The notes under the pieces are model-generated. The model worked only from the letters and a program-made list of their open reading frames with translations. It searched no databases and had not been told where the DNA came from. From Marispirochaeta aestuarii (lineage in GTDB: Bacteria > Spirochaetota > Spirochaetia > JC444 > Marispirochaetaceae), in NCBI RefSeq assembly GCF_002087085.1, contig NZ_MWQY01000013.1:1-64000 (forward strand): a DNA stretch of 64,000 bases, in the 5' to 3' direction. The position numbers and the translations under genes are program-made. This document shows, in pieces, positions 39,162-48,266 of this stretch; position 1 is the first letter of the stretch; each line of letters opens with the position of its first letter.

Positions 39162-40139
39162 TCAGACTGTTTCGGCCAGGCGGGCCCGGTACTTCTCGGG
39201 ATCTGCCCGGAATCCGAAGACGGCACGGTCCGGATCCTGTCTGGATTTCCGGAGGGCCGATACAGCTTCGGTTAAAAGAAGATCCGGGTCAATGAGCCGG
39301 CCGCTTCGTGAGCTCAAGCCTCCCCAGGCGCTGATGTGGGGAAAGTTCTTTTCCAGTTGTTTACGGAAATCCCTGACCGTGCGAATCCCGTCATCGAGTT
39401 CCGTATTCGGCAGGATCAGGCATGCCCGCTCCGCGCCGTATTCATAACAGAGATCGCGGAAAACAAAGAATTGACGTATCTCCGGTGATACCTCCTTCAG
39501 TTTCAGGAGCGGATCAAGGCCATCAAAGACTATCACGGCAATTGTAAGGTCCTGGTCGAAGGAAGCCGCCCGCTTCAGTTCCGATTCAAGACGCATGGAT
39601 AGATACTCGCTGGACATGAGACCCGAATCATGATCGGATTCAGTGTCTGCGGGTGCACTCAGGGCCCGAATTTCCACCCTTTCCACTGGTCTGGAACGGG
39701 GTAAAAAGGCCAGAATCAGGCCTGAGAGGAGCACCGCCGCGCTCGCGGTATACAGCAGAATTCGCAGCCGGGGAAGAAGTTCAGCCCGGTCGATAAGGGA
39801 ACTCCGTATTCGAAGCAGGGTATCCGGCCGGCTGGCATCAAGGGAATACTCGTAGGTTCCATTTACAAGGGAAAGAAGGGACGATGAGAGGGCCTTCGAA
39901 CGGTACAATACCCGCTCAGATTCCCCCTGTACAAGGTCGATGCGCAAAATGTCCTGCAGCTCCTCGCTGCCGGGGGTTCCCCCGCTGCGAATCAGCATCG
40001 CCAGTTCCATGACCTTTTCACGATTATTCTCGTAATTGTTTCGGGAGAGTCGTGAAAGATCGTACAGGACATAGGTTGATGCCGAGACAAGAATAAGTAC
40101 AATCAATGCGGCATAGGTTTGCACAACAACCTTATTCAT
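39162..40139 (-). CDS. Membrane protein with degenerate GGDEF domain
   Basis: A 325-residue protein with an N-terminal helix (about 8-30), an extracytoplasmic region of about 90 residues, a second helix (about 126-146) and a cytoplasmic domain. The domain aligns with GGDEF cyclases in overall pattern (SEYLSMRLESELKRA, LTIAVIVFDGLD, YGAERACLILPNTELDDG). The catalytic GG(D/E)EF loop is replaced by YGAERACLILP, so it should not make c-di-GMP. It may bind the nucleotide or act as a scaffold. Another GGDEF-like domain occurs at 44134-45189. A TATAAT lies 6 bases before its start codon. Confidence 0.65.
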   Translation of the reverse strand: MNKVVVQTYAALIVLILVSASTYVLYDLSRLSRNNYENNREKVMELAMLIRSGGTPGSEELQDILRIDLVQGESERVLYRSKALSSSLLSLVNGTYEYSLDASRPDTLLRIRSSLIDRAELLPRLRILLYTASAAVLLSGLILAFLPRSRPVERVEIRALSAPADTESDHDSGLMSSEYLSMRLESELKRAASFDQDLTIAVIVFDGLDPLLKLKEVSPEIRQFFVFRDLCYEYGAERACLILPNTELDDGIRTVRDFRKQLEKNFPHISAWGGLSSRSGRLIDPDLLLTEAVSALRKSRQDPDRAVFGFRADPEKYRARLAETV

Positions 40140-40211: not shown

Positions 40212-41051
40212 ATGGAATGGATGAGAGAAGGAATTCATAATCCTGGTCTCCCTTCCGGCTGGTACCCCCGCAGTATGGAGAAAATACGTTCTTTCCTTGG
40301 TGAGCTCGACAGGGGCGACGCCATTCCCCATGGCTGCGCCTGTATCGTACCCCACGCAGGATGGACTTTCTCCGGCAGAACAGCTGCCAGAGCCATTGCC
40401 TCCCTGGAAGCCTGCGATGTTATCGTTCTCGTGGGCGGTCATCTTGGTCCCGGGGAAAAGCTTCATTGTCTCCCTTTCAGAGCTTACAACACCCCGGCGG
40501 GTTTTATCGAGACCGACGGGAAACTCGTCTCCCTGATAGATTCCCGCTTTGATCTTCATTATTCCGGCGGAGTTGACAACACAACGGAAGTACAGCTTCC
40601 TCTTATCGCGTTTTATCATCCGGATACGCCGGTTGTCGTGCTTCGTGCTCCCCCTTCCGGGCTTGCGTCTGAACTCGGTCAGATGCTTGCGGAATATGAA
40701 AAAGAAAAGAGCGTAAAGATCGGGGTGATCGGATCCACCGATCTGACCCACTATGGTCCCGGCTACGGTTTTACTCCCAGGGGCCCTGTTGGAGAGGCCT
40801 ATGCCTGGATCCGGGAGGTCAACGACCATCGCTTTATTCAGGCTGCCATGAAGGGGGATGTGCAGCAGCTTCTGCGACTCGGCCTGGCTGAACGCTCGGC
40901 CTGTTCTCCCGGTGCGGCTGCAGCCGCGGTCTCCTTCGCATTTTCCTCGGGGTGCTCAAGAAGCCAACTCCTTGAGTATACCACCAGTTACGATATGATG
41001 CCCTCGGAAAACCTGGTTGGATACGCTGCGGTTCTCTATTCCCCTGCATAG
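40212..41051 (+). CDS. MEMO-family (AmmeMemoRadiSam B) protein
   Basis: A 279-residue MEMO protein. The three expected metal ligands are visible: His in PHAGWTFSG (about 48), His in GGHLGPG (about 76) and Cys in ERSACSPGA (about 235). Some MEMO proteins form a three-gene system with a radical SAM enzyme and AMMECR1, but those partners are not within the window. MEMO is related to extradiol dioxygenases and may be a redox or metal-binding protein. Starts at 40212 or 40221 are possible. The last 16 bases overlap the convergent DUF115 gene. Confidence 0.88.
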   Translation: MEWMREGIHNPGLPSGWYPRSMEKIRSFLGELDRGDAIPHGCACIVPHAGWTFSGRTAARAIASLEACDVIVLVGGHLGPGEKLHCLPFRAYNTPAGFIETDGKLVSLIDSRFDLHYSGGVDNTTEVQLPLIAFYHPDTPVVVLRAPPSGLASELGQMLAEYEKEKSVKIGVIGSTDLTHYGPGYGFTPRGPVGEAYAWIREVNDHRFIQAAMKGDVQQLLRLGLAERSACSPGAAAAAVSFAFSSGCSRSQLLEYTTSYDMMPSENLVGYAAVLYSPA

Positions 41052-42646
41052 AGGGAAACGAATTTCAGAAAGAGGCTGCGGGCTTCCTCGATAATTTCGC
41101 CGGTTACTGCGACGGAGGATTCACGCTGCTTTCTCAGAAATGAAATGAGGGGGTAGAGCAGCTGCACGGTACCGGGAGCGTTGTTTCTGAGTTCCTCCGA
41201 GATCTCACGGAGAAGCACGGAGGGTTTCGGGGTTTCCTCCGTCGGAAGGACCTGAAGGGCCTGTGCCCCGGACGATGGGGTACTTCCCGTTGCCAGAAGC
41301 GGGGCGGAAACGCCGTGGATCTTCAGCTTCCCGGAACACGTTTTCAGGTAGGCTGCCATGTTATCCCGGTATCGGTCAAGGCGAGGGCAGGGGTAAAGTC
41401 GGTTGTACTCGGGGATCTCCTGTCCCCTGCGTCCTTCGAAGGTAAATCCCAGGGACTGTGCAAGAAAGGGCGAAGTTCTTGTCTCCCTGAGGCGGAACCA
41501 GCGGTCCACGTAGGTTGCCGGAGCGTAGGGAATCCCTCCGGGCTGGGAATAATCAACGCCGAAGACTGTCAGCTCTTCCATCCCTGCGGAAAGCGCCAGC
41601 GAAAGGGCCGCCTGCAGAACGTTTCCTCCTCCGGTATCCATGATCGGAAGGCCGGTCTTCCGGGCCAGCGCAAGCTCCAAAGGAATCCCGCCGGCAAAGA
41701 CGAAGGGTTTTTTGAGACTGCGAAGCAGTGCCGGCGGCGCGGAGAGGGTGACGGCCCAGGGGATGTCCAGACTTCCCGGCTGCATGGCATGAAGAAGGGT
41801 ATAGTACTGGCTGTCGATGCTGACAACCAGGTCCGGTTTCAGATCCAGCTGCTGAAGAAAGGGAAGGGCGGTGTCCACTGCAATAAGCATGGAGTCCGCG
41901 GCCGTCCGCAGTAACAGCTCACGGTCTTCCCGCAGGCTCGGTCCGGCTCCCACAAGGATGGCCTTTTTTATCGATTTTTCAAAAAGAGAAAGATAATCCG
42001 ATGCTGCGGGAAAGTCCTGAAGATAAGCAAGGTTGGCAATGCAGTTGCGGCTCCACAGAAGTCCGAAGTGGGCCTGCACTGAAAAGTCGTTCCTGATCTG
42101 GTTCAGGGCAAGATCAGCGGCACGTTTAAGCTGCTCATAGCGTTCCCGCCGGCGGATGGAGAGGGCCGGCAGACAGATAAAGCTGAAGCCGCCGTGAAGA
42201 CCCGGCAGGTAGTTGTGCACCAGGTGATCAGTAAGCTCCTCGGGACCGGGATCGAGAAGCATTTTGAAACGCGGGTGTTCCAGGATTTTCCGGTAATCTC
42301 GTCCGCTGAGAAAACTCCTGAGGCGTCCCGGCCCGTCAATGATGAGAAGGACCTCCCTGTCGTTCAGGTTCAGAAACTCTTCCAGGTGCCACGCTGCACC
42401 AAGGCCGTAGACGACGGTGAACCCGGAATTTCCAGCGGTCTGAAGGAGGCGACGAGCCTCACGGGAAGGGTCTATCGTTGAATGCAGAGGATACTCCCGC
42501 TCTCCAAAGGTTTCGTACACAATCTGCAGGCCGTTTTTTGACGATGAGAAGCGGATGTACGGCTCCGGATCCGCCGCCAAAACCCGGCGGGCTATCTCCG
42601 GAAAGCGGCGTCCAAGGATGCTCAGGTTTGCTTCCAGAAGCTTCAC
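41036..42646 (-). CDS. DUF115 (MptE-like) protein, second copy
   Basis: A 536-residue member of the DUF115 family, related to archaeal 6-hydroxymethylpterin diphosphokinase MptE and to flagellar-associated Maf proteins that add glycans to flagellin. The DUF115 core is seen in AILVGAGPSLREDRELL (about 235-252), SIDSQYYTLLHA and TVFGVDYSQPGG with GGGNVLQAALSLAL. The GTG start at 42646 was chosen because ggagg lies 4 bases before it and it overlaps the upstream stop (GTGA). The longer reading from 42736 lacks a ribosome site. The 3' end overlaps the MEMO gene by 16 bases. Confidence 0.8.
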   Translation of the reverse strand: MKLLEANLSILGRRFPEIARRVLAADPEPYIRFSSSKNGLQIVYETFGEREYPLHSTIDPSREARRLLQTAGNSGFTVVYGLGAAWHLEEFLNLNDREVLLIIDGPGRLRSFLSGRDYRKILEHPRFKMLLDPGPEELTDHLVHNYLPGLHGGFSFICLPALSIRRRERYEQLKRAADLALNQIRNDFSVQAHFGLLWSRNCIANLAYLQDFPAASDYLSLFEKSIKKAILVGAGPSLREDRELLLRTAADSMLIAVDTALPFLQQLDLKPDLVVSIDSQYYTLLHAMQPGSLDIPWAVTLSAPPALLRSLKKPFVFAGGIPLELALARKTGLPIMDTGGGNVLQAALSLALSAGMEELTVFGVDYSQPGGIPYAPATYVDRWFRLRETRTSPFLAQSLGFTFEGRRGQEIPEYNRLYPCPRLDRYRDNMAAYLKTCSGKLKIHGVSAPLLATGSTPSSGAQALQVLPTEETPKPSVLLREISEELRNNAPGTVQLLYPLISFLRKQRESSVAVTGEIIEEARSLFLKFVSLYAGE

Positions 42647-44130
42647 GTTTCCTCCATGGAGGAAACGATTTCCCGCAGCTCCAGGATCTTCCCCGCTGTG
42701 TATTCGTCCGGATCCGCCTCGATTCCGGGAGGACATAATTTCAGCCGGAGCTCTCTGAAAAGGGGAGAGGAGGGATCCCGTGAAGCCATCCGACGGCTGT
42801 CGTCAAGGAGTTGTAACAAACGATCCTTTCTGAGACTGAAGGACGGGACGGAAATTCCCTGGAACGAGAGTCGCCCCTCGCTGCCTGAAATCTCTTCAGG
42901 ATGTGGTGCCTGGACCGGAGGAAAAGGAAGGCCAATCCTGGATGGATTAAGCCGGAGAATTCTGTGCGCTGTCTCCTCCCCGAGGCCTGCGAACCAGTCG
43001 CTGTAGGTCCGGAGAGACGGAGACTGGCCCTGCTCCGGGGCTGTGTCCCGGGAGTAGCGGTATTTCCGGGAATAGAGAGGATGCGTACGGCAGACGTCTT
43101 TTGAAAAAGCAGGGTCAAAGCTGTGGGGCCGCACATGGGGATGTATATCGTCATAGCAAAGGTCGAGGCCGGCAATTATTACCGGTTCCCTGCTCAGGCC
43201 GAGGGAAAAGAATATGGCGCTTGCGGCGACGGTACCCATGGCAGGAATATTCAGGGGTTCGATATCAAGCAGGGACCAGAGGGCCTCCTCAAAAGGTTCA
43301 CCGCAGCTTACGGGAAGAACCGGGCCCATGTGGCGGCGGATGCCGGTATCTGTAAAAAGCGGAGCCGCCAGAGGGACCTTCATGCCCTGAGCTTCTGAGA
43401 GATGCAGAGAGGCGTAGTACCCGGGATCTGTCTGGATAATGATGTCCGGAATACGCCCCAGGTTTCTGAGAAAGCTGAGGCTTGAGGGCAGGGCGATAAG
43501 GGCGGCCCTGCTGTTTCGAATATACTCCTCGTCGCGATTAAGGCTCGGACCTGATGCCGCAATCAGAAAGGGCCCCCGGGATTCTGAAATCCGGCAGAAA
43601 TTCTGCGGGAAAAGGAAGTTGGATATACTGTTCCGTATCCAGCGGAAGCCGAAGGCTTTTATGGTGGTTATGTTACCGTTCAGAATGCGTATCCGCCGCT
43701 GGATTTTCGCGAGTACCTCCGAGGCTGTATCGGAAAATGCATTGATCGACGGCTGCCATTCCAGAAGAGCAAAACCCTGGACAAGGAGGATCTCTTCGTC
43801 AATGCAGCCCGTGAGGATTGCATCCAGAGGGTCCGAGGCCGGGGACCAGTATATTTCCCTTGCACCTCCGGAGAGATTCTCCGTCATCAGGTCGGAATGA
43901 AGAGACAGACTGACTATTCTTGTTTCGGGAAAGGTTCTGCGGACAGCCCCGGCAAGATACCCCAGCAGGTCACCGACAATAAGGACAGTCCCGGAGGCCT
44001 TAAAGGAACCGTGTATGCTGGAACGGACAAAACGTTCAGCTTCTCTGGAAGGATCAAACCGGGATATCAGGGCCCTGCCGTCCATGAGGGGAATGATATC
44101 TCCTGTTCGGCTTGCTTCAAAGCTCAGCAT
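42643..44130 (-). CDS. DUF115 (MptE-like) protein, first copy
   Basis: A 495-residue paralogue of the next gene. The core is visible as FLIAASGPSLNRDEEYI (about 187-203), a QTDPGYYASLHL segment and IIAGLDLCYDDIHPH. The N-terminal 150 residues differ strongly from its neighbour. Tandem DUF115 genes next to each other suggest a two-component enzyme or a duplicated glycosyl or pseudaminic acid-type transferase acting on flagellin, but no flagellin gene is in the window. The gene starts 3 bases after the stop of the upstream 44134-45189 gene; all four genes from 47486 down to 41036 form one reverse operon. Confidence 0.8.
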   Translation of the reverse strand: MLSFEASRTGDIIPLMDGRALISRFDPSREAERFVRSSIHGSFKASGTVLIVGDLLGYLAGAVRRTFPETRIVSLSLHSDLMTENLSGGAREIYWSPASDPLDAILTGCIDEEILLVQGFALLEWQPSINAFSDTASEVLAKIQRRIRILNGNITTIKAFGFRWIRNSISNFLFPQNFCRISESRGPFLIAASGPSLNRDEEYIRNSRAALIALPSSLSFLRNLGRIPDIIIQTDPGYYASLHLSEAQGMKVPLAAPLFTDTGIRRHMGPVLPVSCGEPFEEALWSLLDIEPLNIPAMGTVAASAIFFSLGLSREPVIIAGLDLCYDDIHPHVRPHSFDPAFSKDVCRTHPLYSRKYRYSRDTAPEQGQSPSLRTYSDWFAGLGEETAHRILRLNPSRIGLPFPPVQAPHPEEISGSEGRLSFQGISVPSFSLRKDRLLQLLDDSRRMASRDPSSPLFRELRLKLCPPGIEADPDEYTAGKILELREIVSSMEET

Positions 44131-44133
44131 CGG

Positions 44134-45189
44134 CTAAGGCTGCTTCTCCGGCGGATACTGGGCAATAAGTTCCTCCAGGGAATCAAATGCGGCGGGAGGA
44201 GGTGCCAGGTGAAAATCTATCCCGGCCTCATTATCGGAAAAAAAGTTCTGCAGGGCAAGGCGAACCTGATGCTGCAGAAGCTTCGGATTCGGACGCTGCC
44301 GGGTTCCCAGCAGCAGGAGATACTCCTCGTCCTTCAGCGGAACAATCCGGGAGCTGCCCTCGAAGAGGGTTTCGATGATCCGCAGGCTGTCTCTCCTGGC
44401 TCTGAAAAGATCTACATCCGCGGAGAGGGCGGCAAGATGTATCAGCAGTCTGTTGAGGGAAAACCTTATTGCCGTCAATTCCTTTTTCCGGGAGTCAATC
44501 TTTCTCAGAAAATCTTTGATCTCCGAAACGCTGCCGGAGCTGCCTGTTCCCGGACTGCTCAAGCGGAGCAGTTTGTTTCGCCGGAGATAATTGCCCAGAG
44601 AAAGCTGCAGGGCCTCTATCTGATCTTCCGCCAGCGAAATGTAGTCCAGTTCGTTCGGCTCTTCGCCGAAAAGAAGGATCATTCCCGCCGGTTCATCATC
44701 GACACGGATCGCCAGCATGCGCAGATCTTCCAGGAGTTCATATTCCCTTGAAGAGAGAAAGGGCTCAAGAAAGGAGTAATCGTCAAAGGAGAGCCACGTC
44801 CCCTTCCGGGGGCTGCTGAAGGCATCTGCCGGAAAGCGGAGGCGGTTCCGGCTGGTAACATCCAGTCCGGTCTGTGCCCTGGGCAGAAAAAAACGCTCGT
44901 CCCTGTTTTTTGTGAGAAAAGCGCCTTTTTTTATGGAAAAAAGTTGTTTGACGTCTTCGAAAAGCTCCACGATCCCTTCCAGGGAGGGTGCCAGACTGTC
45001 GATCTTATCGCAGAGCTCCGTCAGCCCGGCCGCTGTGTCGGCCAGGTTTTTTTTTTTGCCCGGATCCCTGCCCGATTCGCCGCTTTTATTATCAGCCGGA
45101 GAGCTGTGGTCTTTGTACTCCTCAGCTCGGGCCCGCAAACCGCTTTTTGGCAGATTGCGGCGGGCCGAGGCTTTCTCAAGCAATCCCAT
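44134..45189 (-). CDS. GAF-like plus degenerate GGDEF-like protein with an 11-base poly(A) tract
   Basis: I do not recognise a named family. Residues about 1-60 are charged and disordered, including KKK coded by the A11 tract. Residues about 75-200 show alternating strands suggesting a GAF/PAS-like fold (KGAFLTKNRDERFFL ... MLAIRVDDEPAGMILLFGEE). Residues about 225-345 resemble a degenerate GGDEF domain (LLIHLAALSADVDLF, RIVPLKDEEYLLLLGT), without the catalytic loop. The poly(A) run is T11 on the plus strand at 45047-45057, early in the gene, and could permit slippage. The start overlaps the upstream acidic gene's stop by one base (TAATG). A regulatory role in the operon is inferred. Confidence 0.55.
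   Translation of the reverse strand: MGLLEKASARRNLPKSGLRARAEEYKDHSSPADNKSGESGRDPGKKKNLADTAAGLTELCDKIDSLAPSLEGIVELFEDVKQLFSIKKGAFLTKNRDERFFLPRAQTGLDVTSRNRLRFPADAFSSPRKGTWLSFDDYSFLEPFLSSREYELLEDLRMLAIRVDDEPAGMILLFGEEPNELDYISLAEDQIEALQLSLGNYLRRNKLLRLSSPGTGSSGSVSEIKDFLRKIDSRKKELTAIRFSLNRLLIHLAALSADVDLFRARRDSLRIIETLFEGSSRIVPLKDEEYLLLLGTRQRPNPKLLQHQVRLALQNFFSDNEAGIDFHLAPPPAAFDSLEELIAQYPPEKQP
45047..45057 (-). repeat. Homopolymer tract of 11 A (coding strand)
   Basis: Plus-strand T11 gives the codons for GKKKN about 44-48 codons into the 44134-45189 gene. It is the longest coding homopolymer noticed in the window. Loss or gain of one base would truncate the protein early, so it could serve as a phase switch. 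Confidence 0.8.
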
Positions 45190-47486
45190 TAGGACGATAT
45201 CCCCAGTTCATCAAACAGTTTCTGATATACCTTGAAATGCTCGGATCTGGCAAACTCTTCAATCTTCTCTTCCGGCAGAGCCTCAAGAAGCTGGTCCATA
45301 TAGGAGAGAACAGACTTTATCTCACTCTGCAGCGCAGGATTAAGGTCCAGAGACTCTGCGGAAGCTGCAGCATCTTCCCCGGTATACTCGGGTTCCGTGG
45401 CGGAATCTTCATACTCTTCTGCAGAAAGCTCATCAGCTTCGATTTCTTCAAAGTCATCAACAGAATCCCCGGCTTCAAGGCCGATTTCCTCTTCGCTCAG
45501 GTCGAGAATTTCATTCTCGGGAAATTCCGCCTCTTCTTCTGATGCTTCGATAATCTCTTCCATCTCCTGGGAGTCCTCGGGAGATATTTCCAGCTCTATT
45601 TCTTCCTCCAGATCTTCCAGTTCATTCCCGGTATCTTCGCCTTCAGTTTCCTCTTCTGCTTCGAGGGAAAGCTCTTCTTCCAGTTCTGAATCTTCCGATC
45701 CAAGTTCCAGATCTTCCAGATCGAGGTCTGCAAAATCCGGCTCTTCTGACTCTTCTCCAAACTCATCTTCGCTGAGGCTGAACTCATCACCTGCTTCAGT
45801 CTCCGGCTCTTCGGTACGTTCTTCCGCCGGGTACAGTTCTTCTTCCTCGATATCGAGGATGTCTTCGCCATCAAGAAGATCATCCGATCCAAGGTGTTCT
45901 TCAGGATTGTCCAGAAGTTCCAGTTCATCCTCGTCAAGGGTGTCAGCTGCTTCCGGGCTTTCGTCCAGATCCTCAAAATCATCCATGGCGGTGATGTCGA
46001 GTTCTTCCACTGCCTCGGATTCGGAAATATCGAAGTCTTCATCGTCTGCCCCGATTTCAGGCAGGCTTATCTCCTCTGCAGTTGCTTCCTCTTCCTCTTC
46101 AGGAATTCCCAGATCCGAAAGATCAAGCTCCTCCCCGGTATCCAGATCGGAAAGCTCGAGTTCATCCTCTTCGGTATCCGGCTCCGAGAGGTCTATTTCC
46201 TCTTCATGTTCCTCTTCCGGGCTTTCCAGTCCTGAAAGATCAAGCTCTTCAGTTTCTGACTCTTCCGTGCTTTCTTCGGCGGGGGAGAAGTCGATGGCCT
46301 CCGCAAGGCTGCTGTCCATGCTGGAGATGTTGATGTCGAGTTCCTCTTCGGGACCTTCGGAAGCTTTTCCCGCCTCTTCCGTAACATCCGCAGTATTCAG
46401 AATGTTGTCGAGCTCATCACCGGTCAGCGCGATGGTTTCATCCTCGTCTTCCTCGAAAAAGCCGGGCAGGCGCTCTTCGTCTTCCTCCTGATCCCGGTCC
46501 GCCGCTTCCCTTTCGGCGCCTGCGGGGGAAAGCTTCAGGCTGCTGAGCTCACTCTTGAGGGAGGCAAGTTCATCGCGAATTGAATGCAGTTCATCTTCAA
46601 TTTTCCTCAGAACTTCGGATTTTTCCTCTATGGCCGTGTCCAGTTCTGAAGAGACGATGTTCTCCTCCACAAGGTTCTCCACGGAAAGTTCCGGCAGATC
46701 CTCTTCTTCGTCCTGTCCCAGGTCATCCAGGCTTATCTCCTCGGGTTCTTCGGAGAAAACGGAAGTATCGGAGAGTCCGGATTCTTCGGAATCCTTCTCC
46801 AGAGACATGGCTTCAAACTCTTCCTCATCAAAGGAGGGAAGTTCTTCCTGTCCGGCTTCCTCCGTATCCGCTTCCAGATTATCCAGGTCTAAATCGAAAA
46901 AGTCCTCTTCCTCGGATTCCCGGATTTCGTCTGCAGCTTCTTCTTCCTTATCCGGTGCTTCATATTCTGGTTCAAACAACTCGTCTTCCTCGTGCTGAGA
47001 GGTCTCTTCTTCCGAAGCCGGTTCGGAAAAAGAATCCTCCGGGGTGTCGATGGTGAAGATGTCTTCGTCGAGGGAGAACTCTTCCTCCGAAGGACTTTCC
47101 TGCTCTTCGGCTTCTTCCTCTTCGATGGAGTCAAAATCACTCATATCATCCAGGTCCTCCAGGCTGAAATCTTCCTCTATTGAATCATCCTCGCCGAATT
47201 CAGTCATCTCCGGGGCCTGCTCTGAAGTCGTATCGTCATTATTGTCTTCTTCTTCGGAGCCGCCTGTTTCAAGGTCTCCGAGAAGAGACTCCTCTTCCTC
47301 GGTCAGGAATGATGTGGCCCCTTCTATCTCGGGCAGATTCTCAAGGGAAAATGAGTCGCCGTCCGTTGTTTCGTCAATGTCTTCAGGGCCGGATTTTACC
47401 CAGACTCCGTACTCCTCAAGGGTCCCCCCCGTTGAATCGAGTTGTTCTGATGTATCCAGCGTATCAAAATCCTTTTCAACACCCAT
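45189..47486 (-). CDS. Very acidic repeat protein (probable scaffold)
   Basis: A 765-residue protein with a very high Glu and Asp content (roughly two fifths by eye). It has short repeats of the form E-(L/I)-(D/S)-L-(S/E/D)-x-L, such as SLEDLDD, SLDDLGQ, LDLSGLES, LELSDLDT and LDLSDLGI. A coiled-coil-like segment (VLRKIEDELHSIRDELASL, about 290-308) and a GFFEEDEDETIALTGDEL motif (about 344-361) interrupt it. The last 50 residues (ALQSEIKSVLSYMDQLLEAL, then EEKIEEFARSEHF) form a folded, conserved-looking end. It lacks a signal peptide. Such a layout fits a disordered docking protein carrying many copies of a short binding motif. It heads the operon that contains the DUF115 genes. Confidence 0.7.
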   Translation of the reverse strand: MGVEKDFDTLDTSEQLDSTGGTLEEYGVWVKSGPEDIDETTDGDSFSLENLPEIEGATSFLTEEEESLLGDLETGGSEEEDNNDDTTSEQAPEMTEFGEDDSIEEDFSLEDLDDMSDFDSIEEEEAEEQESPSEEEFSLDEDIFTIDTPEDSFSEPASEEETSQHEEDELFEPEYEAPDKEEEAADEIRESEEEDFFDLDLDNLEADTEEAGQEELPSFDEEEFEAMSLEKDSEESGLSDTSVFSEEPEEISLDDLGQDEEEDLPELSVENLVEENIVSSELDTAIEEKSEVLRKIEDELHSIRDELASLKSELSSLKLSPAGAEREAADRDQEEDEERLPGFFEEDEDETIALTGDELDNILNTADVTEEAGKASEGPEEELDINISSMDSSLAEAIDFSPAEESTEESETEELDLSGLESPEEEHEEEIDLSEPDTEEDELELSDLDTGEELDLSDLGIPEEEEEATAEEISLPEIGADDEDFDISESEAVEELDITAMDDFEDLDESPEAADTLDEDELELLDNPEEHLGSDDLLDGEDILDIEEEELYPAEERTEEPETEAGDEFSLSEDEFGEESEEPDFADLDLEDLELGSEDSELEEELSLEAEEETEGEDTGNELEDLEEEIELEISPEDSQEMEEIIEASEEEAEFPENEILDLSEEEIGLEAGDSVDDFEEIEADELSAEEYEDSATEPEYTGEDAAASAESLDLNPALQSEIKSVLSYMDQLLEALPEEKIEEFARSEHFKVYQKLFDELGISS

Positions 47487-47810: not shown

Positions 47811-48266
47811 ATGAAGATTGGTACCCGTCTGCTTTTCTCGTTATATATCGGCTTTATGGCTGCCTCGCTTGTCTACTACCTGTACAGTCCAACGGGATTA
47901 TTTGCTTATCGTCAGCTTCAGGGTGAGATTGTACGCCTTGAAAATAATCTTCAGGACCTGAAGGATCTTCACAGGGAGCTTTCCGGAGAATTCGACTCCC
48001 TGCGACGATCTTCCGAGACGGTAATTCTTCGGGCGCGGGACCTGGGCTATGCCCGGAGCGGTGAAACATTCCTGATGCTAGAGGATTTTAAGCCCAGACC
48101 GGGAAACTACTATTCCGTCGGACGGATTATAACTCCTGGAGCGGCTGAAGCGAATCGTAATGCAGCCTCCCTTCTGACTGGCATTGTTTCCATGGCTGCG
48201 GCTTTTCTGCTTATCGCAATTTTTACCAATCCCAGGGGAAGGGCAGACGGTTCTGCCCACAGTTAA
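47811..48266 (+). CDS. FtsB/DivIC-like septum protein
   Basis: A 151-residue protein with one N-terminal membrane helix (about 6-26), then a leucine-rich coiled coil (EIVRLENNLQDLKDLHRELSGEFDSLRR, about 39-66) and a second hydrophobic segment (about 122-140). The helix-coiled coil layout with an LRRSSETVILRARDLGYARSGE ending matches DivIC/FtsB (septum formation initiator) proteins, which in E. coli bridge FtsQ and FtsL. The C-terminal second helix is unusual. It overlaps the next gene by one base (TAATG). The ribosome site is weak. Confidence 0.7.
   Translation: MKIGTRLLFSLYIGFMAASLVYYLYSPTGLFAYRQLQGEIVRLENNLQDLKDLHRELSGEFDSLRRSSETVILRARDLGYARSGETFLMLEDFKPRPGNYYSVGRIITPGAAEANRNAASLLTGIVSMAAAFLLIAIFTNPRGRADGSAHS

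Follow-up and report, generated by a model that had tools for sequence, protein, structure and literature searches.

The locus analysed here has close relatives among three kinds of described system. The Maf flagellin glycosyltransferases, such as Magnetospirillum Maf (structure 5mu5) and Aeromonas Maf1 (PMC4065374), share a central MptE/Maf domain with a GxGPSL motif and co-occur with flagellin. Maf modifies flagellin in the cytoplasm, prior to export (PMC4065374). In spirochetes, FlaB of Treponema denticola bears a glycan that is essential for filament assembly (PMC9481697); the accessible open-access literature identifies no transferase for this glycan. PelD and the GAF-GGDEF diguanylate cyclases (4etz, 4zmu) combine a GAF-like domain with a GGDEF-like domain, which may be degenerate. 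Finally, programmed transcriptional slippage, as described for Thermus dnaX, the Shigella mxiE and spa genes and IS elements (PMC1088944, PMC5009743), occurs at tracts of nine, ten or more A residues whose length is conserved.

We examined a window of 64,000 nt from Marispirochaeta aestuarii, a member of the class Spirochaetia (GCF_002087085.1, contig NZ_MWQY01000013.1, positions 1-64,000), which holds a four-gene operon that we call ACID, GAFL, D115A and D115B. D115A and D115B are putative glycosyltransferases that share the domain and the flagellin co-occurrence of Maf but, unlike Maf, are always a divergent tandem pair encoded together with ACID and GAFL in one operon. GAFL resembles PelD and the GAF-GGDEF cyclases in its predicted domains and differs from them in its N-terminal GLLxKA motifs, its slippery linker and its missing catalytic motif: GG[DE]EF is absent from 114 of 116 GAFL ORFs, the two regular-expression matches being GSDEL and GSDEF, and cyclase activity is therefore unlikely. 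In common with the known slippage cases, GAFL would yield two products per gene, and one extra A would restore its ORF. Unlike them, it is a sensor or adapter gene that recurs in at least 16 families of one class, and its tract separates a putative docking peptide from the domain to which that peptide belongs. Taken singly, slippage, dead GGDEF proteins and Maf enzymes are of known kinds. Their combination, the depth of tract conservation and the pairing of ACID with GLLxKA proteins were not found in the open-access literature and may have been described elsewhere; the same literature held nothing relevant on slippage or DUF115 proteins in spirochetes.

Layout of the operon and its products

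The initial annotation described four tightly overlapping reverse genes. All four lie on the minus strand as it placed them, at 41036-47486 and in the transcription order ACID, GAFL, D115A, D115B (Table 1), and they are coupled by short overlaps or gaps. The sequence TAATG (45191-45187) joins ACID to GAFL with an overlap of one base, and GAFL ends at 44134, 3 nt from the D115A start at 44130. D115B probably begins at GTG 42646 rather than at ATG 42736: this GTG forms a GTGA overlap with the D115A stop and is preceded by GGAGG, and homologues of D115B begin at N..LERNLLALS. With this start, the 94-bp overlap between D115A and D115B becomes an artefact. Rfam and tRNA scans of the window gave no match, and a scan of the window for promoters and terminators gave matches at chance level. 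We conclude that the four genes are a single tight unit and a real operon.

Table 1. Features of the operon and its neighbours in the window.
Feature	Position	Strand	Basis
ACID, 765 aa, largely disordered acidic repeat protein (41% D+E), encoded first in the operon	45189..47486	-	first position conserved in Spirochaetia
ACID, N-terminal conserved motif LEEYGVWVKSGPE	47382..47423	-	YGxWV counts in long ACID ORFs
ACID, C-terminal three-helix domain (SEIKSVLSYMDQLLEALPEEKIEEFARSEHFKVYQKLFDELGI)	45192..45338	-	alignments and AlphaFold
GAFL, 351 aa, GLLxKA-GAF-degenerate GGDEF protein	44134..45189	-	AlphaFold/Foldseek; motif scan
GAFL, N-terminal helix pair MGLLEKA...SGLRARA (aa 1-27)	45109..45189	-	conserved start and AlphaFold
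GAFL, A11 slippery tract in disordered linker, in frame here	45047..45057	-	sequence; A9-A12 with -1 junction in 45 other loci
GAFL, GAF-like domain (aa 49-185)	44635..45045	-	AlphaFold/Foldseek
GAFL, degenerate GGDEF-like domain (aa 220-345)	44155..44532	-	AlphaFold/Foldseek; catalytic motif absent
D115A, DUF115/MptE-like, Maf-type glycosyltransferase relative, 495 aa	42643..44130	-	PF01973 and 5mu5 profile match
D115B, DUF115/MptE-like, Maf-type glycosyltransferase relative, ~536 aa from GTG 42646 (ORF opens 42736)	41036..42646	-	PF01973 and 5mu5 profile match
GGD, membrane-anchored, degenerate GGDEF, conserved downstream neighbour	39162..40139	-	TIGR00254 0.0038 (below cut-off); synteny
MEMO (AmmeMemoRadiSam system protein B), convergent conserved neighbour, outside operon	40212..41051	+	family match; synteny
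FtsB/DivIC-like gene, divergent conserved neighbour, outside operon	47811..48266	+	family match; synteny

Both DUF115 proteins scored above the curated PF01973 cut-off of 34.6 bits (D115B, 87 bits, 1.7e-24; D115A, 50.9 bits, 2e-13). Profile comparison matched them to the Maf structure 5mu5 (E 5.9e-18 for D115B and 3.8e-7 for D115A) and also to MptE, and their GxGPSL and GxxVxxA regions align with 5mu5, in agreement with their earlier description as MptE/Maf-like enzymes. Each of six genomes examined holds four or five PF01973 genes. The genome of the window carries two further DUF115 genes (L069 6896-8668, contig C14; L070 2081-3673, contig C3), each with a gene for a membrane-anchored protein ahead of it; on contig C14 the distance is ~35 kb to flaB-flaB and ~31 kb to fliD. 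In one genome (G009, L066 7986-9445) D115A is present as two ORFs and in its relative G034 (L055) it is whole, which reflects either a real break or a sequencing error.

Single-sequence searches of Pfam and NCBIfam gave no family match for ACID or GAFL, and the C-terminal domain of ACID had no significant match in the PDB. AlphaFold predicts three helices for this domain (pLDDT ~76-92 by block), and at the other end of the protein the YGxWV motif is present in 104 of 140 long ACID ORFs, at a median position of 34. The AlphaFold model of GAFL (26 sequences, mean pLDDT 80) opens with two helices (residues 3-12 and 18-27); residues 28-48 are disordered and lead into a GAF-like domain, which is followed by a GGDEF-like one. 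Its best Foldseek matches were GAF-GGDEF cyclases and PelD: the GAF-like domain resembles the GAF domain of 4g3v_A (TM 0.68 by target length), and the GGDEF-like domain resembles 4zmu and PelD 4etz. Although Pfam matched neither domain in Spirochaetia members, these folds support the earlier view of GAFL as a sensor-like GAF/GGDEF protein. An MGLLx[KR]-type start was found in 112 of 129 GAFL loci, and among the other genes of the collected loci no GLLxKA start occurred outside GAFL homologues. The first 35 residues of GAFL carry a mean net charge of +1.9, and the GLLxKA motifs lean basic; together with the acidity of ACID, this suggests that the two proteins bind each other directly.

The A-tract of the GAFL gene

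The poly(A) tract of GAFL had been proposed to be switchable. The tract is real, an A11 run on the sense strand that stands in frame in the window and codes for residues of the modelled disordered linker. We surveyed 129 non-redundant GAFL loci and compared the frame of the GAF part with that of the MGLLxKA start. At 45 loci the two lie in different frames that are joined at a run of A9-A12, and in every case the offset is -1; the run is A10 in 41 of them, A9 in two, and A11 and A12 in one each. Eleven further loci, including the window, are in frame with a run of at least nine A, and 71 are in frame without a tract, so that slippage is not needed everywhere. An offset of +1 was seen only at L112, which has an A9 tract and clusters with A10/-1 loci on a D115B tree, and at L206, which has no tract; both may reflect tract-length mutation or assembly error. 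As a general cause of the frame shifts, assembly error was rejected because many unrelated assemblies agree on both the -1 offset and the A10 length.

Runs of at least nine A occur within the first 240 nt of 57 of the 129 GAFL genes, as against four in 105.8 kb of GAFL bodies (beyond nt 260), and the tract-bearing loci are not AT-rich (mean GC of the GAFL region 0.54). At least 16 GTDB families include -1 loci, and this state is scattered over the D115B tree, which requires eight changes of tract presence; since this is a quick tree with long branches, the order of gains and losses is unsure.

At the -1 loci the stop codon of the 0 frame comes a median of 7 codons past the tract. In each of these 45 loci we scanned the GAF frame from its previous stop codon to a point 150 nt beyond the tract: 14 loci lack every kind of start codon, 35 lack ATG, and three have a start with a Shine-Dalgarno-like (SD-like) sequence. 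With no usable start in the GAF frame, full-length GAFL at these loci needs recoding at the tract. The frames would also lie apart if the gene were decaying, or if a small GLLxKA peptide and a GAF protein were encoded by separate genes and no fusion protein were made. Such accounts would fit the short protein, or none, that lies between ACID and D115A in some Treponema-like genomes. We consider them very improbable: at most of the 45 loci the GAF ORF has stayed open and can be aligned over ~300 codons, the 14 frames devoid of any start and the scarcity of SD-like ones argue against an independent gene, and in many other lineages the protein occurs as an in-frame fusion.

Long homopolymers are mutable, and a contingency locus in which changes of tract length during replication switch GAFL on and off within a population would account for the mixture of A9 and A10 in one close group (L112, L115, L118, L122, L123) and for the window's genus, where A11 stands in frame and A10 occurs both in frame (L035) and at -1 (L036). 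Random switching, however, would produce both wrong frames and varied lengths, whereas 45 tracts are offset by -1 against a single one by +1, and in-frame copies are a minority (11/57) of those that bear a tract. The scatter of lengths and frames over on and off states that marks contingency loci was not seen across the loci, and phase variation is, in our judgement, quite unlikely. With 45 of 46 out-of-frame tract loci sharing one offset and 41 of them exactly A10, the evidence speaks for a conserved recoding site and not mainly for a phase-variable switch.

Such a site could act on the polymerase or on the ribosome. A -1 programmed ribosomal frameshift on an A_AAA_AAN slip would give the same products as polymerase slippage, and A-rich heptamers are known frameshift sites (PMC3711429). 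Every shift is indeed -1, and in 31 of the 45 loci the tract begins at codon position 2, giving xAA AAA AAA AAx with A_AAA_AAN in frame. Yet seven A residues would suffice for the ribosome and ten are kept, the phase of the tract is not fixed (31/7/7), and the A9, A11 and A12 variants are accommodated more easily by polymerase slippage. Moreover, the heptamer lacks enriched SD-like or stem-loop stimulators: SD-like sequences were found near 10 of 45 tracts as against 8 of 45 control windows, and the downstream fold had a z of -0.45. We regard ribosomal frameshifting as unlikely. RNA-polymerase slippage is favoured because the tract length lies near the transcriptional threshold and frameshift stimulators are not enriched, and also because runs of nine A of conserved length in homologues have been taken as a sign of purposeful transcriptional slippage (PMC1088944). 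As in programmed slippage, which is marked by A9+/T9+ tracts, the tract of the -1 loci is of conserved length, and their full ORF is reached only through another tract length and in a fixed direction; the window, being in frame, differs in this last respect. In the window, where the A11 tract is in frame, slippage would truncate GAFL.

Co-occurrence with flagella and a proposed module

The order FtsB (divergent), ACID, GAFL, D115A, D115B, MEMO (convergent), GGD recurs in ~35 genomes of the class, with occasional insertions and occasional loss of MEMO, and 80 named spirochete loci plus further regions add to this. ACID, D115A and D115B occur together in more than 100 loci. The candidate operon of the initial annotation is thus conserved, and the independent distribution of its four genes, by which it could have been refuted, was looked for and not found. 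MEMO itself (40212-41051 in the window), a conserved convergent neighbour, is absent in several lineages. Some Treponema-like genomes (L139, L147, L152, L153, L144-L154) have no GAFL or one reduced to a ~106-aa C-terminal domain, and keep ACID, D115A and D115B.

A survey of 327 genomes of the class found flagellin in 248, ACID in 194 and a match to the D115A profile, which counts any DUF115 paralogue, in 212. DUF115 and flagellin occurred together in 210 genomes, DUF115 only in two, flagellin only in 38 and neither in 77 (counts uncorrected for shared ancestry). Thirty-six of the 38 flagellin-only genomes, of 0.9-1.9 Mb, belong to family f19, which we take to be Borreliaceae-like and which has flagellin without ACID or DUF115; outside this family, 210 genomes have both, 77 neither and four only one (two of each kind), any DUF115 gene being counted. 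The corresponding figures for ACID and DUF115 over the 327 genomes, again uncorrected for shared ancestry, were 190 with both, four with ACID only, 22 with DUF115 only and 111 with neither. One genus (g10, family f9) offers a natural deletion: in two flagellin-negative genomes, G011 (L273 2863-6020) and G069 (L274 1-1887), ACID is followed directly by GGD, and GAFL, D115A and D115B are absent, with FtsB still divergent upstream of ACID in G011. In flagellin-positive G189 of the same genus, ACID is followed by a GAFL-like gene at the contig end. This comparison indicates that the GAFL-D115A-D115B block goes with flagella and that ACID and GGD have a further role; three ACID-positive genomes without flagellin likewise point to a further, non-flagellar role of ACID. 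The flagellar link that had been suggested is thereby strengthened. In one genome (L269) the operon lies ~10 kb from flaB1-flaB3-fliD-like genes, which is not so in most other genomes examined.

The DUF115 pair might nevertheless modify a target other than flagellin, such as an envelope glycan or another secreted protein, with an indirect flagellar link through cell shape or polarity. The FtsB neighbour of the operon and the three flagellin-negative genomes that keep ACID would suit such a target. So would the presence of about four DUF115 genes per genome, one of them near flaB-fliD on contig C14; the other DUF115 genes, about two more per genome, could be the real flagellin enzymes. Against it, the presence of DUF115 matches that of flagellin in nearly every genome outside f19, and within one genus the pair was lost together with flagella. 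On balance we find a non-flagellin target rather unlikely, and flagellin modification is the most likely function of the module.

We propose a spirochete-specific, flagella-tied module in which a Maf-type pair, a GAFL adapter and an ACID scaffold act together and GAFL is made through slippage at the A10 tract, a reading to which we give a probability of roughly 60%. D115A and D115B would be a tandem Maf-type glycosyltransferase pair, controlled or positioned by GAFL, a catalytically dead GAF-GGDEF adapter whose GLLxKA helices would dock on ACID, a disordered acidic scaffold. Production of GAFL would depend, over much of the class, on programmed slippage at the A10 tract that separates these helices from the GAF domain. 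Translation of unslipped mRNA would give a short GLLxKA peptide ending soon past the tract, and that of slipped mRNA (net +1 nt, -1 frame) the full-length protein, so that slippage would fix the ratio of free docking peptide to peptide-linked sensor. In the genome of the window, with A11 in frame, full-length GAFL would be the default and slippage would give a minor short form. Slippage in GAFL may also tune translation of the DUF115 pair, because the GAFL stop abuts or overlaps the D115A start. More tentatively, and at slightly less than even odds, we suggest that an A10 site of programmed transcriptional slippage, conserved across the class, separates the GLLxKA docking peptide from the GAF-GGDEF adapter. 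It would thereby determine the amount of a flagellin-modification complex that contains the Maf pair and is built on the phylum-wide acidic scaffold.

To our knowledge, there are few documented cases of conserved transcriptional slippage in ordinary cellular genes of bacteria. If it operates here, its spread over at least 16 families would form a rich natural dataset, and it would account for the broken appearance of GAFL-type genes or for their annotation as two fragments. The module also names candidates for the spirochete flagellin-glycosylation machinery.

ACID and its partner across the Spirochaetota

The C-terminal domain of ACID is present in 194 of the 327 class genomes and in 151 of 198 sampled Spirochaetota genomes. 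Outside the class, the gene after ACID starts with MGLL/MGLR-xKA in most loci and carries one to ten GLLxKA-like motifs, followed in the partners that we tested usually by GAF and often by GGDEF domains. The N-terminal GLLxKA motifs and the place after ACID thus extend through the phylum, and ACID with its MGLL partner is more widely spread than the DUF115 pair. We regard ACID and its GLLxKA-GAF-GGDEF partner as an undescribed phylum-wide pair. A10-A11 tracts stand in frame at a few loci outside the class (L280, L293, L295, L315, L326). One homologue of GAFL from outside the class (L297 3772-6699) has a near-perfect 19-residue repeat, with about ten GLMHRA/GLLxRA motifs, ahead of its GAF and GGDEF domains.
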